7,432 nt of DNA. It comes from Patescibacteria group bacterium. GTDB lineage: Bacteria; Patescibacteria; Microgenomatia; Daviesbacterales; UBA10151. The first letter of the stretch is position 1. Each line of letters begins with the position of its first letter. Made by a program: the position numbers and the translations under genes. Positions 1 through 7,432 of the stretch are shown here, in pieces. The notes under the pieces were generated by a model, which made no database searches, was not told the DNA's origin, and saw nothing but the letters and a program-made list of their open reading frames with translations. The DNA lies in the NCBI GenBank assembly GCA_023380995.1, contig JAMCTD010000028.1, positions 1 through 7,432 on the forward strand, written 5' to 3'.

Positions 1-518
1 TAGTTTAAAAAGGTTTTTATATAAACCAATACTAAAAGTACCACAAACAAAAATATCGGGTTTAGGGTAAACCATTTCTTTAAATAATCAACAATACCCA
101 GATAATAGATTGCAAAAGCATGGGTTAAAACAGCAGAGGTTAAAGCTAAAGCTAATGTCATATTCAAATCAGAATTTACTGAGCGGAATAAAACTTCACC
201 CTTATAAGTAATTGTTGCAAACCCTGGCAAAAGGCCAATCCAGTTTGACATCAAAATAAACAGGAAAAAAGTAGCCACAATGGGAAAGAAGACTTTGGCC
301 TTGTTTCCTGCCAAATCTTCAACTGTGGTATAGATAAAATCAATCAAAACCTCAAATAAATTTTGTAATCCTGATGGGATTAGTTTAATTTTCCAAGTAG
401 CTAAAAAAGAGGTGATTATTAAAACAGCCATTGTTATCCAACTTACCAAAAGAGTATTGGTAATGGGAAAGCTTTTAAAGAATCCCAAAATCTCTGGTTT
501 TAAAACTATAGTTTCCAT
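1..518 (-). CDS. atpB: F-type ATP synthase subunit a (AtpB), N-terminal 172 residues, runs off the left edge
   Basis: This is the membrane stator subunit that, with the c-ring, forms the proton path of F1Fo ATP synthase. Translation from the ATG at 518 gives hydrophobic helices at about residues 22-42, 76-98 and 120-142. Family landmarks are SNWIGLLPG (91-99), just after the second helix, and SDLNMTLALAL (116-126), the classic xADLNxTLAxAL segment. The frame is open to base 1. The essential arginine (R210 of E. coli) would fall about five residues beyond the edge, so it cannot be checked. After NPIFLFV (153-159) the sequence no longer matches the usual G-[IL]-L-E-x-[IV]-S pattern; Val163 sits where the Glu is expected. 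No Shine-Dalgarno sequence is seen, but a promoter lies 28-57 nt upstream of the start. As the first gene after a promoter it probably heads the atp operon. The assignment is firm; only the last 12 codons are doubtful. Confidence 0.93.
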   Translation of the reverse strand, partial: METIVLKPEILGFFKSFPITNTLLVSWITMAVLIITSFLATWKIKLIPSGLQNLFEVLIDFIYTTVEDLAGNKAKVFFPIVATFFLFILMSNWIGLLPGFATITYKGEVLFRSVNSDLNMTLALALTSAVLTHAFAIYYLGIVDYLKKWFTLNPIFLFVVLLVLVYIKTFLN

Positions 519-575: not shown

Positions 576-608
576 CCGTTAATCCAACTTTTCCCAAAAC
601 TAACTGTC

Positions 609-647
609 ATTGCGAGCCCCGCACCGTACGGTGCGGGGCGTGGCAAT
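609..647. repeat. REP-like GC-rich palindrome (CATTGCGAG...GTGGCAATC type)
   Basis: The core at 616-639 is a perfect 24-bp palindrome with 12-bp arms meeting at GTAC, and about 83% GC in an otherwise AT-rich region. Outside it, ATTGC (609-613) pairs with GCAAT (643-647) across an asymmetric internal loop of GA against GTG. The whole folds into one long hairpin on either strand. The ends resemble the widespread intergenic repeats that begin GTCATTGCGAG and end GGCAATCT; this is recalled, not searched. It sits 21 bp before the GIY-YIG start codon and just upstream of that gene's -10 box. It lacks the following T-run of an intrinsic terminator. Confidence 0.85.
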
Positions 648-655
648 CTTCCAGG

Positions 656-661
656 TATAAT
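656..661 (+). promoter_or_regulatory. -10 box of the GIY-YIG gene (leaderless)
   Basis: A perfect TATAAT lies 7 nt before the ATG at 669, so transcription would start at or within a base or so of the start codon. No convincing -35 is present at 17-18 bp, because that position is occupied by the right arm of the palindrome (609-647). Confidence 0.6.
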
Positions 662-668
662 AGTTTAT

Positions 669-923
669 ATGTCCTCAAAATATTATTACGTCTACATGAT
701 TAGTAATTTCAGGAGAACTGTTTTATACACCGGTACCACTAATAATTTAATAACAAGAGTCTATGCACATAGAAATGAACTAGTGAAAAGTTTTAGTCAA
801 AAATACCATCTTCATGATTTACTGTATTATGAAACATTTAAAGATCCAGATTCAGCCATAGCAAGAGAAAAACAAATTAAAAGCTGGTCCAGAAAAAAGA
901 AAGATCAATTAATTGCTTCTTAA
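669..923 (+). CDS. Single-domain GIY-YIG nuclease (UPF0213/YhbQ-like)
   Basis: The 84-residue protein is one GIY-YIG domain and nothing else, the normal length for the UPF0213 group. The two signature strands are YVY (7-9, for GIY) and YTG (20-22, for YIG), spaced as usual. The catalytic arginine is probably Arg30 in NLITRVYAHR, and the metal-binding glutamate is probably Glu67 in AIAREKQIKSWSRKKK. All core residues are present, so the enzyme could cut DNA. Cellular roles of these small nucleases are poorly defined. It is the only plus-strand gene between minus-strand genes, directly follows the palindrome and overlaps the end of a truncated HAD gene by 47 nt. It appears to have its own leaderless promoter. 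Placement suggests a selfish or repeat-associated unit; that part is inference. Confidence 0.88.
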   Translation: MSSKYYYVYMISNFRRTVLYTGTTNNLITRVYAHRNELVKSFSQKYHLHDLLYYETFKDPDSAIAREKQIKSWSRKKKDQLIAS

Positions 924-1089
924 ATTGTTCTTTTGTATAAGTTCTATTTTTGATTAATTGCTCATTCTCGTTATAAATGTCTATCACCAACTGCTTAATG
1001 GCACGGAATTTTTCTTTATCTGATTTATCTATGTAAGGTTGAACCGGAAACAGTACGCCTCCAAAATCCACCACTAGCGCCTTAATCAT
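877..1089 (-). pseudogene. HAD-superfamily hydrolase gene, 5' stump only
   Basis: The ORF begins MIKALVVDFGGVLF, the N-terminal HAD motif I: a hydrophobic strand, nucleophile Asp8, then the GGVL turn, with Gly at the usual second Asp position as in some HAD phosphatases. HAD enzymes need further motifs (Ser/Thr, Lys, and acidic motif IV) over roughly 200 residues, but this frame stops after 70. Only codons 1 to about 55 lie outside the GIY-YIG gene. The last 15 or so are antisense of the GIY-YIG 3' end and are unlikely to be HAD sequence. No further HAD remnant was found between 519 and 668. The start is 1 nt after the stop of the 523-aa gene, so it was probably the second gene of that operon. 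A tiny functional protein is possible but unlikely. Confidence 0.7.
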
Positions 1090-1090
1090 T

Positions 1091-2662
1091 TCAATCTAAT
1101 TTTTCCCTTTGGGTCCTAAGAAAGAGAAACCATTGTTCAAAAAAGGCAAATATTCCTTTAAAAGGAGTTTCAATTATAAAATCAAACAGCACCAGGATAA
1201 TATTTATTTGTGAAATAGCCATAGTTAACCTTCTTCCTATTTGAATAAATGGCATAAAGAAAAAATCAAATAATATGGAGCCCAAGTTTTCCTTTTTCTC
1301 TTTTAAGATAAACATATGCGCAGTTCTGTTTATCCTAAAACTAACAAATGAAACAATTGCCAAAAAGAACATAAAAACTGCTTGGGACAGGGGATTTATG
1401 TGTAATTTGCCCAAAATAAACATAATTGCCCCAATACTTATGGCAAAAGCTGCCAACCAAAGTACAATAAATATGGTCCACATAAGGGGATGAACATTGC
1501 TGGATTTCTTTTTTAAGCTTAATGTTTGGCCAAGCGCTGGAGGATTATCATATAAAATAGTATTTATCTTTTTAAGAATCCTAAAGGAGTTTTCCCTGTT
1601 TGGAGTTTGGATTAAGAAACCCACCATAATCATCAGTACCGGAGGAGTCAGCGTATTTAAGGCAATAGAGGACCACATCATGCGTCCATAAAAAACCCTC
1701 TCAAATGTCCCTTCCACAAACAGGGCAAATAAGGCTTTCGTAAAAAATATAAAGATAACGCTTCTTAAAATTGCCCTGCTGACTTTACTTTTAATAGTTT
1801 TATAACGGGCATTACAAGCTACAAAAATTTCTGAATTTAAAAGCTCTTCATCAGAAGCTAAGGCTGCAGCCTTACCGCGGTGCTTTCTTAAAATATCATC
1901 CAAAATTAAAAAGGGGATTGTTTGGTTTTTAACATAGGAATAGATCCTATCCCTGTTAGTATATTTAAATTGTGCTTCTACTTCTTTTAAAGCTTGTGGA
2001 AAATGATTTGCTATTTTCTCCAGATTATCTTCATTTAAGACACCAAAATATTGCTTAAATAAATGGTAACGCAGAAAAGCCAGGTCATCATTGGCATAAG
2101 CCCTTCTGACAGCAATAAAGGTTTGAACATCCCTATTTTGTTCAGAATCATCAGAAAGAGTAATCCTGTCTTTAAAAATTCCAAATATAAAATTACTCAT
2201 GGTATCTTTTGGATCATTGGGTTTCAAAATATGTTCTATCTCAGAAGATAAAAGATGCAAAATCCACTCATTTACCAATCCTTTATTAATACGGTGTTTA
2301 TCGTTAACCTCTTTTTCCAAGCTTAAATATAGATCTATGGCATTTGAAACTTTTGTTACTTGGGATTCAGCAATTGTAAAATCAGGAAAGTAGCGCGCCC
2401 AAACCAACTCCCTGATTAAAGGAGCTGCCACAGTTTTTCCATTCCCCCCAAAAGTTAACCTTCTTTTTAATATCCTTTCAATTGTGGAACGCAAGATAAC
2501 TTCATCTTCCCTGTAATCCATGGCTGTACGGAATTTTTCATACCAGGTGGCAAGTTCCGCCACAACTGAGTTTACAGAAATTGTCCTGTCGTGATTCGGG
2601 GTAGCAGCTTTATCATATGCTGCAACTAACGCTTGAGATAAATTATTTAATGTTTTGCCCAT
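1091..2662 (-). CDS. Multi-pass membrane protein of unknown family (523 aa)
   Basis: I do not recognise this family. The first 295 residues or so look soluble and helical, rich in charged residues, with no signal peptide, so this part should be cytoplasmic. Hydrophobic segments follow at about 300-317, 333-352, 393-418 and 426-444, with one or two weaker or amphipathic ones at 463-475 and 484-498. The C-terminus is aromatic and then basic (FFEQWFLFLRTQREKLD). Loops between helices are strongly basic (KKINTIL 364-370, KKKSSN 384-389), as expected on the cytoplasmic side. No catalytic motif, ATP-binding site or metal cluster is visible. It transcribes away from tyrS and leads directly into the HAD stump. 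Its length, open frame and ordinary amino-acid make-up argue for a real gene. Confidence 0.85.
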   Translation of the reverse strand: MGKTLNNLSQALVAAYDKAATPNHDRTISVNSVVAELATWYEKFRTAMDYREDEVILRSTIERILKRRLTFGGNGKTVAAPLIRELVWARYFPDFTIAESQVTKVSNAIDLYLSLEKEVNDKHRINKGLVNEWILHLLSSEIEHILKPNDPKDTMSNFIFGIFKDRITLSDDSEQNRDVQTFIAVRRAYANDDLAFLRYHLFKQYFGVLNEDNLEKIANHFPQALKEVEAQFKYTNRDRIYSYVKNQTIPFLILDDILRKHRGKAAALASDEELLNSEIFVACNARYKTIKSKVSRAILRSVIFIFFTKALFALFVEGTFERVFYGRMMWSSIALNTLTPPVLMIMVGFLIQTPNRENSFRILKKINTILYDNPPALGQTLSLKKKSSNVHPLMWTIFIVLWLAAFAISIGAIMFILGKLHINPLSQAVFMFFLAIVSFVSFRINRTAHMFILKEKKENLGSILFDFFFMPFIQIGRRLTMAISQINIILVLFDFIIETPFKGIFAFFEQWFLFLRTQREKLD

Positions 2663-4702: not shown

Positions 4703-6802
4703 ATGAACTTAAACACTCCATTATCTCAACTAACAGGTATTGGACCAACGCTTTTGTATAAGTTACAAATATTGAATTTAAATACTGTTGAGGACCTAAT
4801 TTATCATTTTCCCTATCGTTATGATGATTTTTCCAATACCACCTCTGCCTTGGATGCCCAAATAGGGCAGAGTGTGACTTTACAGGGAGAAATTTGGTCC
4901 ATCCAAAATATTTACACTAGATCAAGAAAGATTATTACCAAAGCCTTATTTAACGATGGCACTTCACCCATAGAATTAACTTGGTTTAACTCTTCCTGGC
5001 TTACTAAACAAATCAAAACAGGGGACAGGTTACAAATTTCAGGCAAAATCAGCAAATATAAAAATAAAATTTCCATTGTTGCCCCAAGGTGGGAAAGGAT
5101 AAACAGTTTTCAGTCTTCAGCTATCAGCAATCAGACTTTGCACACAGGAAGATTAGTGCCTGTTTATCCTGAAGTTTCAGGCATCTCATCAAAATGGCTG
5201 CGTACAAAAATAGACAAGCTGTTACCTCAGGTATTAGATCAGGTGCAAGACCCACTGCCACAACAAGTTCTGAACAATATGCTGCCACTTACAACAGCTA
5301 TCAAACAAATCCACTTTCCCACTGACTTAAAACAAGCAGAAAAAGCCAGGGAAAGGTTGGGTTTTGATGAACTATTTTATGTCTCTTTGGCCACCCAAAA
5401 AGCCAGAATAGAGTGGAGTAAAAAACCTCTAATCGAACCTTTAAAAATTAAGCCTTCAGATATTAAAAATTTTATCAGCAAGCTTCCTTTCAAATTAACT
5501 TCTGCTCAAAATAAAGTCTTAAAAGAAATTTTGGAGGATTTAGGAAAAAACCAACCTATGAATAGGTTAGTCCAAGGAGAGGTGGGTTCAGGAAAAACTG
5601 TGGTGGCAGCAATCGTGGCTTTTATTGTTCACAAAAATAGGCTGAAAACTCTTTTTATGGCCCCAACAGAAATCCTGGCTTTCCAACACTTTGATACTTT
5701 ATCCAAACTCTTATCACAATTTGGAATAAATGTTGGGATATATACAGGAAGCAAGAAGTTTAATAAATTGAAAATGGATAATGGACAATTGAAAACTAAA
5801 AAACAAAAAATTCTCAATTCTCAATTCTCAATTGTCAATTCTATTCCTCATATCATCATTGGCACCCATGCCTTGCTTTCCTCTAAATTAGATATCAAAG
5901 ATGTGGGGCTGATTATTGTTGATGAACAACAACGCTTTGGGGTGGAACAAAGAGCCTTGCTTCGCTCCAAAGCCAAAATCCCACACTTCTTAACCATGAC
6001 AGCCACCCCGATCCCAAGGACTGTTGCTCTGACTATCTATGGTGATTTGGATATGTCTGTTATAGATGCGCTTCCCAAAGGCAGGCAATTGGTTAAAACC
6101 TATGTGGTGCCAGAAAAAAAGAGGGCAGACTCGTATAAATTTATTGCCAAACAAGTAGCAGAAGGTGACCAGGTTTATATTATTACACCTTTGATTGAAG
6201 CTTCTGAAACCCTAAAAACAGTCAAAGCTGCAAAAGTGGAATTCGAGAAATTAAAAACTATATTTCCCAAATTAAAACTGGACTTATTGCATGGCAGAAT
6301 GAAGGGAGTTGATAAAGCTAAGGTCACAGAAGACTTCCGCTTGGGTAAAACCCAAATCCTAGTTTCCACATCAGTAGTAGAAGTAGGTATGGACAATCCC
6401 AATGCCACCATTATGGTAATTGAGGGCGCAGAACGGTTTGGCTTATCTCAACTCCATCAGCTAAGAGGCAGGGTGGGCCGCGGCGCTAAACAATCTTACT
6501 GCCTACTTTATGCCTCCAGTCCTTCAAGCGATGAAAGCAGGAGGCTTAAAATTCTGGAAACCACTTTTGATGGATTAAAATTAGCAGAGCTGGATTTAAA
6601 AATCCGTGGCAGCGGACAAATTTTTGGCAAACTCCAGTCAGGCAGGTTTGAGTTTAAAATAGCCAGTTTTTCCAACTTAACCCTTCTTGAGAAAACTAAA
6701 CAAGCAGCCAAAGATTTACTGGTCTTTGATCCCACCCTTGACAAATACCCACTACTCAAGGCAAAATTACATGAGATCACAGGGGATGTGATGCCTGATT
6801 GA
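4703..6802 (+). CDS. recG: ATP-dependent DNA helicase RecG
   Basis: RecG remodels stalled replication forks and branched recombination intermediates. The 699-residue protein is close to the family's usual length. Residues 7-43 are the N-terminal LTGIGPTLLYKL...HFPYRYDD segment, and about 55-132 form the OB-fold wedge that splits the fork. Helicase motifs follow in order: Walker A GEVGSGKT (292-299), APTEIL (320-325), GTHALL (387-392), Walker B/DExx DEQQRFG (407-413, usually DEQHRFG), TATPIPRT (433-440), STSVVEVGMDNPNA, and QLHQLRGRVGRG (583-594). Near the C-terminus RGSGQIFGKLQSG stands where most RecGs have RGPGxxxGTRQSG. The segment between TGS (348-350) and GTHALL is 36 residues, against about 22 in E. 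coli and B. subtilis; it is encoded by a hairpin-forming heptamer repeat. A leaderless promoter precedes it and rpmF follows after 10 nt. Confidence 0.97.
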   Translation: MNLNTPLSQLTGIGPTLLYKLQILNLNTVEDLIYHFPYRYDDFSNTTSALDAQIGQSVTLQGEIWSIQNIYTRSRKIITKALFNDGTSPIELTWFNSSWLTKQIKTGDRLQISGKISKYKNKISIVAPRWERINSFQSSAISNQTLHTGRLVPVYPEVSGISSKWLRTKIDKLLPQVLDQVQDPLPQQVLNNMLPLTTAIKQIHFPTDLKQAEKARERLGFDELFYVSLATQKARIEWSKKPLIEPLKIKPSDIKNFISKLPFKLTSAQNKVLKEILEDLGKNQPMNRLVQGEVGSGKTVVAAIVAFIVHKNRLKTLFMAPTEILAFQHFDTLSKLLSQFGINVGIYTGSKKFNKLKMDNGQLKTKKQKILNSQFSIVNSIPHIIIGTHALLSSKLDIKDVGLIIVDEQQRFGVEQRALLRSKAKIPHFLTMTATPIPRTVALTIYGDLDMSVIDALPKGRQLVKTYVVPEKKRADSYKFIAKQVAEGDQVYIITPLIEASETLKTVKAAKVEFEKLKTIFPKLKLDLLHGRMKGVDKAKVTEDFRLGKTQILVSTSVVEVGMDNPNATIMVIEGAERFGLSQLHQLRGRVGRGAKQSYCLLYASSPSSDESRRLKILETTFDGLKLAELDLKIRGSGQIFGKLQSGRFEFKIASFSNLTLLEKTKQAAKDLLVFDPTLDKYPLLKAKLHEITGDVMPD
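5107..5134 (+). repeat. Four 7-bp units ending TCAG inside recG
   Basis: Four consecutive heptamers TTTTCAG, TCTTCAG, CTATCAG, CAATCAG share the pattern NNWTCAG. They encode residues about 135-144 (SFQSSAISNQ) in the variable link between the OB-fold wedge and the conserved HTGRLVPVYP segment, a place where RecGs differ in length. With only four imperfect units, chance cannot be excluded. Confidence 0.5.
5766..5840 (+). repeat. 75-bp heptamer-built inverted repeat read in frame within recG
   Basis: Two 30-nt arms, 5766-5795 and 5811-5840, are reverse complements at 24 of 30 positions around a 15-nt A-rich loop. Each arm is itself built of 7-bp units: the right arm is TTCTCAA three times, then TTGTCAA; the left arm is TTGAAAA, TGGATAA, TGGACAA, TTGAAAA. 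Its 75 bp equal 25 codons, so it keeps the frame and supplies about residues 355-379, a polar Lys/Asn/Gln/Ser-rich stretch unlike the usual RecG sequence there. The paired substitutions and shared period argue for a repeat element rather than ordinary coding drift. Confidence 0.75.
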
Positions 6803-7375: not shown

Positions 7376-7432
7376 ATGATTCAGGAACAACAAATAATTG
7401 CAGCTATTGCATGGCAGAATGAAGGGAGTTGA
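7376..7432 (+). other. Start of an unidentified ORF whose end is probably chimeric
   Basis: An ATG 3 nt after the nusB stop opens a frame that begins MIQEQQIIAAIA and then meets TGA as the last three bases of the window, giving 18 codons. Its final 28 nt are identical to part of recG, so the stop is probably not that of the real gene. The first ten or so codons may be the true start of the next gene of the operon. Too little remains to name it. Confidence 0.35.
7405..7432 (+). repeat. 28-bp exact copy of recG 6285-6312 at the window end
   Basis: The last 28 bases match positions 6285-6312 inside recG without a difference, and the match ends exactly at the final base. In recG it encodes part of LLHGRMKGVD; here it is read in another frame, which argues against a selected duplication. 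A false join or an unresolved overlap at a contig end explains it best. Confidence 0.9.

Follow-up and report, generated by a model that had tools for sequence, protein, structure and literature searches.

Results

A palindrome and a truncated nuclease gene lie in an insert

The window (the whole stretch of DNA analysed here, 7,432 nucleotides) carries, near its left end, a palindrome and a small nuclease gene between the genes for ATP synthase subunit a and a 523-aa protein. The features of this region are listed below.

3..518, minus strand: ATP synthase subunit a (PF00119), left neighbour, cut by the window edge
596..1090, no strand assigned: insert relative to the ORF523-atpB junction of relatives, from comparison with those relatives
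605..608, plus strand: TGTC tag at the outer end of the left palindrome, read directly
609..647, plus strand: REP-like palindrome (ATTGC arm 609-613, perfect core 616-639, GCAAT arm 643-647)
648..650, plus strand: CTT tail after the stem
669..923, plus strand: GIY-YIG nuclease gene of 84 codons, C-terminally truncated (PF01541, E = 2.1e-13)
877..1089, minus strand: N-terminal fragment, HAD-like, within the insert; it overlaps the 3' end of the truncated nuclease gene
1091..2662, minus strand: 523-aa protein with no Pfam domain, conserved in relatives, right neighbour of the insert

The palindrome begins with GTC (606-608), after which ATTGC (609-613) pairs with GCAAT (643-647) to give a 39-bp hairpin around a perfect core of 24 bp (616-639), and the nuclease gene starts at 669, 21 bp past the hairpin. 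The earlier note on this DNA had described the hairpin in these terms, and its coordinates agree with those found here. The core is the longest perfect palindrome in the window (the runner-up has 16 bp), and folding of 590-670 gave z = -4.69, with 0 of 200 shuffles as stable. A scan of the whole window found one GTC-ATnnn unit only, with no right-hand palindrome after the nuclease gene.

The description of the gene as intact, with 84 aa, did not hold. Among the 120 homologues listed of 273, most are 95-100 aa long and align over nearly the whole query; the window protein ends at residue 84 and lacks the conserved FNPxLKDLY end (the last ~13 residues). N86 and D91, both invariant in 33 relatives, are absent with it, and the window nuclease is therefore probably inactive.

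The palindrome, the nuclease gene and the HAD-like fragment together are an insert. Neither the nuclease nor the fragment was matched in any of 10 fetched relatives (tblastn, E up to 1). In seven of the ten, ORF 1091-2662 and atpB are neighbours separated by a short gap; in one the distance to atpB is ~1.6 kb, and in two no atpB was seen (one of these being a short contig end). The insert is flanked on either side by an imperfect repeat of 17 bp (579-595 and 1091-1107, 14 of 17 positions identical), of which the relatives carry a single copy and which may be a target duplication; no target-site duplication was found apart from this one imperfect case. The name given to the fragment at 877-1089 is a reading of its letters, and Pfam gives no HAD match. 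The window locus is a broken, decayed, inserted copy of a probably mobile unit, the complete form of which is described below.

The 523-aa protein encoded at 1091-2662, without a Pfam match, is present in 130 of 233 related genomes. At the other end of the contig, the last 28 bases repeat a stretch of recG exactly, within a 37-bp repeat at 89% identity (7396-7432 versus 6276-6312), which looks like an assembly artefact.

Inverted palindromes flank one GIY-YIG subfamily across bacteria

Loci were gathered by protein similarity alone, and the best 80 of 548 confirmed loci were kept. The unit sought was GTC-ATnnn...n'n'n'AT with GTC pointing outward, at most 200 bp upstream of the gene or within ~200 bp of its end downstream. 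Of these 80 loci, 65 had a tag-outward unit upstream of the gene and 70 had one downstream; 59 loci had both, and 76 had at least one. The earlier note had predicted that palindromes would be enriched beside such genes, and the control open reading frames (at least 100 codons, same 80 loci) bear this out, with units on both sides in 2 of 145 and on either side in 16 of 145. Background elsewhere in the same loci was 37 and 35 of 1374 windows. The 80 loci span 30 taxon labels, 29 of which have at least one flanked copy under a stricter unit definition; the labels are NCBI phyla or record titles, and several are candidate phyla of Patescibacteria.

A larger set was assembled from 247 matches, reduced to 228 distinct ones by removing duplicates identical in gene and 100-bp flanks. 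It contains 200 distinct strong copies, made up of the 80 together with copies from Patescibacteria, Alphaproteobacteria and Bacteroidota, eight viral-contig loci and the window; the eight viral-contig relatives lie outside the 80-locus counts and inside the 200-copy flank, class, tree, anatomy and length analyses. Tag-outward units were found upstream of 148 strong copies, downstream of 135, on both sides of 112 and on either side of 171, leaving 29 of 200 without a unit by the search definition; the window copy is not among the two-sided ones. In 22 weakly scoring GIY-YIG genes (17 from 20 regions fetched for comparison and 5 second matches inside other loci, the latter perhaps pieces of broken genes) the corresponding numbers were 1, 5, 0 and 6. 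Six further genes of 60-80 bits, in neither the strong nor the weak set, included two with two-sided units. Since the weakly scoring genes lack two-sided units, the palindrome link belongs to one subfamily. Unit length from tag to tag had a median of 404 bp (n = 112), with median gaps of 21.5 bp from palindrome to start codon and 11 bp from stop codon to palindrome.

Ordinary intergenic hairpins, terminators or REPs, might come to lie beside a small gene by chance or through the long intergenic gaps in which short genes sit. Palindromes are indeed abundant in many of the genomes, and units in the wrong orientation were seen beside the gene, 19 upstream and 30 downstream in the 80 loci and beside 51 and 68 of the 200 strong copies. 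Such an origin would not, however, give both-sided units at 59 of 80 loci against 2 of 145 control frames of at least 100 codons and 0 of 22 weak genes, nor the match of palindrome class between left and right and with the protein reported below, and we consider it extremely improbable. A motif-free comparison of flanks gave inverted matches scoring at least 30 in 41.5% of 193 strong genes, against 7.3% with loci swapped and 0% of shuffles; direct matches also reached 33.2%, because many loci hold several repeats, so that this comparison is only moderately useful. Taken together, these comparisons firmly establish, at the sequence level, the link of one GIY-YIG subfamily to CGTC/TGTC palindromes.

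Anatomy of the repeat and its likeness to CGTC-tagged REPs

GTC and the AT at the start of the stem were imposed by the main search. Two further features were not required by it: beside strong genes, a pyrimidine precedes GTC in 140 of the 148 units on the left and 121 of the 135 on the right, and 274 of 283 units have a C directly after the stem. The tag of these units is T or C followed by GTC, with no GTAG tag. The second tail base is T in 163 and C in 106 of the 283 units, the window tail being CTT, and an exact CCA tail occurs in many of the named alphaproteobacterial units. Beyond the tag, units beside strong genes showed no marked base conservation and no target motif, and the unit is thus taken to end at the tag. 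Palindromes of the CATTGCGAG type, on which the earlier note had centred, are real; the class to which they belong is wider than it supposed, with arms ATTCT, ATTCC, ATCCC and others.

This anatomy recalls a known super-family. In the passages of Di Nocera et al. (2013, PMC3733652) drawn on here, REPs are described with the tag CGTC, often TGTC or CCTC, a stem starting with AT and a tail that is mostly CCA; many are paired, and most families have loops of 4-5 bp. They are said there to "apparently lack a dedicated transposase", and no tyrosine transposase gene was found flanked by CGTC repeats. The palindromes studied here share the tag and mostly the tail with those of PMC3733652, as far as they are characterized in these passages; an AT at the start of the stem is common to both, though here the main search required it. 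They differ in that CATTGCGAG units have longer and more variable middles, and in the presence of a candidate enzyme. Compact units (for example in A. lipoferum) fit the 4-5 bp loop; long CATTGCGAG units, including that of the window, do not.

Among the taxa named in these passages of PMC3733652, the gene is carried by Azospirillum lipoferum, Novosphingobium aromaticivorans, Neisseria and S. meliloti. Thirteen of 32 matches in a plasmid collection were fetched as named records and given a strict CGTC/TGTC scan. CGTC palindromes adjoin the gene in A. lipoferum, N. aromaticivorans and N. gonorrhoeae. Two-sided units with tags outward were found in 5 of the 13 records (Azospirillum lipoferum 4B, Rhizobium CIAT894, Neorhizobium EC2-8, Sphingobium TomMM7A and Novosphingobium aromaticivorans, the last with the CGTCGC variant), or 6 with Neisseria included; 7 were not two-sided. 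Neisseria gonorrhoeae has units on both sides of the gene, the nearest of them tag-inward, and was for this reason left out of the clean two-sided cases. Shinella HZN7 has an exact left unit and a right unit with a mismatch, seen by eye, and the Sinorhizobium meliloti flanks show a CCTC-type palindrome, also by eye and outside the counts. Scanning the 13 named loci without the AT requirement found mostly CGTCAT beside the gene, and also CGTCAC and CGTCGC. Two PLSDB entries, NZ_CP119142.1 and NZ_CP119140.1, are 2.17-Mb Neisseria gonorrhoeae 'plasmid' records that look like chromosomes.

The protein is a predicted GIY-YIG nuclease with a distinctive C-terminus

With a PF01541 domain and the conserved Y, R and E, the protein has the sequence features of the GIY-YIG superfamily, of which it is a predicted member. 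The nearest solved structures by sequence are the UPF0213 proteins 1zg2 (E = 1.5e-6) and 1ywl (2e-4). The predicted structure (mean pLDDT 87.9) has its nearest fold in 1zg2 as well, with TM 0.52 (E = 2e-4); matches to Slx1 (best E 0.019) and UvrC (0.29) were weaker. Y20, G22, R30, E67, N86 and D91 are among the residues invariant in 33 relatives, and the first five of these presumably correspond to GIY-YIG catalytic residues; a UvrC N88A mutant structure among the fold matches points the same way for the asparagine. Compared with UPF0213 (1zg2, 1ywl), the subfamily has a conserved C-terminal N-x(4)-DLY end, and none of its four members tested is covered by an NCBIfam family. The GIY-YIG domains of Slx1 and UvrC are parts of larger repair enzymes, and we know of no repeats attached to them. 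According to its entry titles Slx1 acts on branched DNA, a likeness that would fit the recognition of a hairpin or cruciform predicted here. No HUH tyrosine transposase (Y1) is encoded by the gene: PF01541 was the only Pfam domain, and the fold search returned GIY-YIG.

Palindrome class follows protein subtype

Co-variation of repeat and protein subtypes, another expectation of the earlier note, was observed. The left and right palindromes were of equal class in 75 of 112 genes, where 31.5 were expected (0 of 10000 permutations reached this). On a protein tree (199 copies, of which the 156 with a main class were used; a quick tree, quoted without supports, and with groups by locus number), palindrome class required 43 changes, against a shuffled mean of 73.6 and a minimum of 66 in 200 shuffles. 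Within Patescibacteria alone there were 13 changes versus 21.0 shuffled (n = 43), within Bacteroidota 6 versus 11.2 (n = 19) and in the mixed remainder 19 versus 32.3 (n = 82); Alphaproteobacteria alone did no better than chance, with 8 versus 8.6 (n = 12). The association extends to the palindromes of the genome as a whole: among those counted in the 24 Patescibacteria genomes that carry a classed copy, 43.5% shared the class of the gene flanks, versus 25.7% when labels were permuted (0 of 5000), and the gene-flank class was the commonest of the genome in 12 of the 24.

Palindrome number rises with the nuclease gene

Counts of four palindrome classes, made in 192 Patescibacteria genomes, were compared with the presence of a strong gene copy. 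Median palindrome number was 30 in the 61 genomes with the gene and 1 in the 131 without it; 26 of 29 genomes with at least 40 palindromes have the gene, as do 5 of 116 with fewer than 5. The Spearman correlation was 0.72, in counts that ignore kinship and come from drafts with completeness not stated. By number of gene matches the medians were 1 for none (131 genomes), 12 for one (25), 39 for two (15), 72 for three (7), 72 for four (9), 82 for five (4) and 297 for eight (1), a rise that the ~2 palindromes belonging to each gene do not explain. The ATTGC class alone gave a weaker result (34 of 46 versus 39 of 146), and use of four classes strengthened the test. In 115 alphaproteobacteria scanned with a CGTC pattern, at least 9 matches were found in 13 genomes, 9 of them with the gene, versus 27 of 102. 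In one Patescibacteria genome (G191) of 0.9 Mb with 297 palindromes, a single contig (C21) holds six strong GIY-YIG copies in ~45 kb.

The earlier note had held that abundance of the repeat in genomes devoid of the gene would tell against a connection. Such genomes occur as a minority, in that 15 of 64 Patescibacteria genomes with at least 10 palindromes lack a strong copy; the rest agree with the connection. Of the 15, 12 rechecked at a loose threshold (G040, G090 and G097 excluded) had weak GIY-YIG genes or none. An alphaproteobacterium, G314, likewise has 27 pattern matches and no gene. These palindrome-rich, gene-less genomes may be losses, draft gaps, or genomes in which repeats moved otherwise. 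Genome G125, with 14 strict ATTGC palindromes on one strand and no strong copy, possibly contains a tandem array.

The same genomes bear on whether RAYT-like HUH transposases encoded elsewhere move the palindromes, with the GIY-YIG gene a bystander caught between two REPs. Y1 (PF01797) is present in 90 of the 192 Patescibacteria genomes and palindrome number correlates weakly with it (Spearman 0.31); in a joint regression it keeps a small independent term (t = 2.3, versus 12.4 for the nuclease). Against this, genomes lacking GIY-YIG have a median of 1 palindrome with Y1 (50 genomes) or without it (81), genomes with GIY-YIG have medians of 36 (Y1, 40 genomes) and 17 (no Y1, 21), and a main-class unit lay within 600 bp of the locus centre at only 1 of 20 Y1 loci fetched. 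The bystander reading is accordingly very improbable, and RAYTs were rejected as the main driver on the median of 1, with or without Y1, in genomes lacking GIY-YIG.

Near-identical copies and occupied and empty sites

Two copies in G191 are 99.8% identical over 410 bp, the identity starting 4 bp before TGTCAT and ending exactly at ATGACA. Genome G010 has four copies with the same ends at 80-87% identity, and one Patescibacteria genome has 8 gene matches at E <= 1e-15. In Azospirillum lipoferum the unit lies between sufB and sufC; A. ramasamyi, A. oryzae, Azospirillum B510 and A. thermophilum lack both the gene and palindromes of this kind at the sufB-sufC site. Similarly, the gene is absent from the Shinella HZN7 site in two Shinella relatives. 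The intergenic regions have diverged, and the ends of these empty sites in Azospirillum and Shinella are for that reason not fixable. Bare repeats also differ between relatives: L308 and L315, two relatives of the window, have solo palindromes of two different classes in the intergenic region at atpB, where five others compared have none. Bare repeats have probably been gained there recently.

GIY-YIG homing enzymes are known, and the nuclease gene might parasitise REP pairs that are spread otherwise, cutting gene-less pairs and being copied into them by repair. Targets of the kind this supposes do exist, since 68 of 76 gene-less tag-outward pairs have a spacer below 60 bp (26 of the 68 are of the same class; tag-inward pairs number 71). 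Six Sphingobium plasmids compared at the site between fnrL and a response regulator gene also bear on this: two have no palindrome, two have a double-tagged single palindrome (one of them imperfect) and two have a full unit (one with a frameshifted gene). A deletion between short repeats in the two units would, however, also account for the double-tagged palindrome; it looks like a unit collapsed in this way, and a gain in the reverse direction is possible. Homing alone would not lead one to expect that the 131 gene-less genomes are almost free of palindromes (median 1), and the solo palindromes of L308 and L315 stand at a site that is palindrome-free in relatives. We therefore regard homing as unlikely, though it deserves more weight than the bystander and chance readings.

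Discussion

Comparison across genomes establishes a two-sided inverted layout, class co-variation of repeat and protein, a dose relation at the level of the genome, near-identical copies that end at the tags, and occupied and empty sites. The reading that we prefer is that this GIY-YIG subfamily is the dedicated partner that spreads CGTC/TGTC REPs; we think this probable, the steps of recognition, cutting and mobilisation being those that we infer. The unit would consist of a (C/T)GTC-palindrome, a GIY-YIG nuclease gene encoding ~97 aa and a second palindrome of like kind in inverted orientation, with tags outward. The form in which the nuclease would recognise the tagged palindrome is probably a hairpin, present when the palindrome is single-stranded or extruded; the enzyme would nick or cut at or near the tag. 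Through repair or replication, new intergenic sites might then receive a copy of the entire unit, or of a palindrome or palindrome pair without the gene, and such bare copies would be the CGTC/TGTC-tagged REPs.

The earlier note had proposed a nuclease-based analogue of REP/RAYT, and its guess appears right in substance and larger in scope than it stated; the analogy is supported, and the part that needs correction is that two inverted flanking palindromes, not one, are normal. As far as REP/RAYT systems are described in the parts of PMC8266576 and PMC3116915 relied on here, the likeness includes a small nuclease gene, inverted tagged palindromes, many bare copies, and co-variation of repeat and protein subtypes. 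The differences are equally clear. The enzyme is GIY-YIG and not an HUH tyrosine enzyme, the tag is (C/T)GTC and not GTAG, and the gene is often multi-copy and once near-identical, whereas RAYTs are single-copy and incapable of self-mobilization according to the same parts of PMC3116915. Because enzyme, tag and copy number differ, the GIY-YIG unit is not a member of REP/RAYT, although it would appear to work like one. No earlier description joining GIY-YIG genes with REP-like palindromes was found among the open-access papers searched, judged by their titles or the opening of their abstracts, a scope outside which most subscription papers and all preprints lie.

A broader proposal is that the entire CGTC/TGTC REP super-family, the neisserial dRS3 included, is driven by a family of autonomous elements of ~400 bp that encode a ~97-aa GIY-YIG nuclease and no other protein, and that this is so in considerably more than twelve bacterial phyla; we hold the chances of this to be slightly better than even. 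CGTC REPs, known as a super-family since 2013 and without a dedicated enzyme in the passages of PMC3733652 cited, now have a named candidate, an anatomy and natural substrates, and a decade-old question can be reduced to one purified 97-residue protein and one oligonucleotide. Many genes named 'GIY-YIG nuclease family protein' or 'excinuclease ABC subunit C' are probably mobile-element genes. If the proposed role is true, GIY-YIG nucleases, known from introns and repair, could drive interspersed repeats alone, by hydrolytic cutting and not by the covalent HUH chemistry that RAYTs use, and this would be a second, independently evolved route for hairpin REPs and a minimal nuclease to copy themselves through bacterial genomes.
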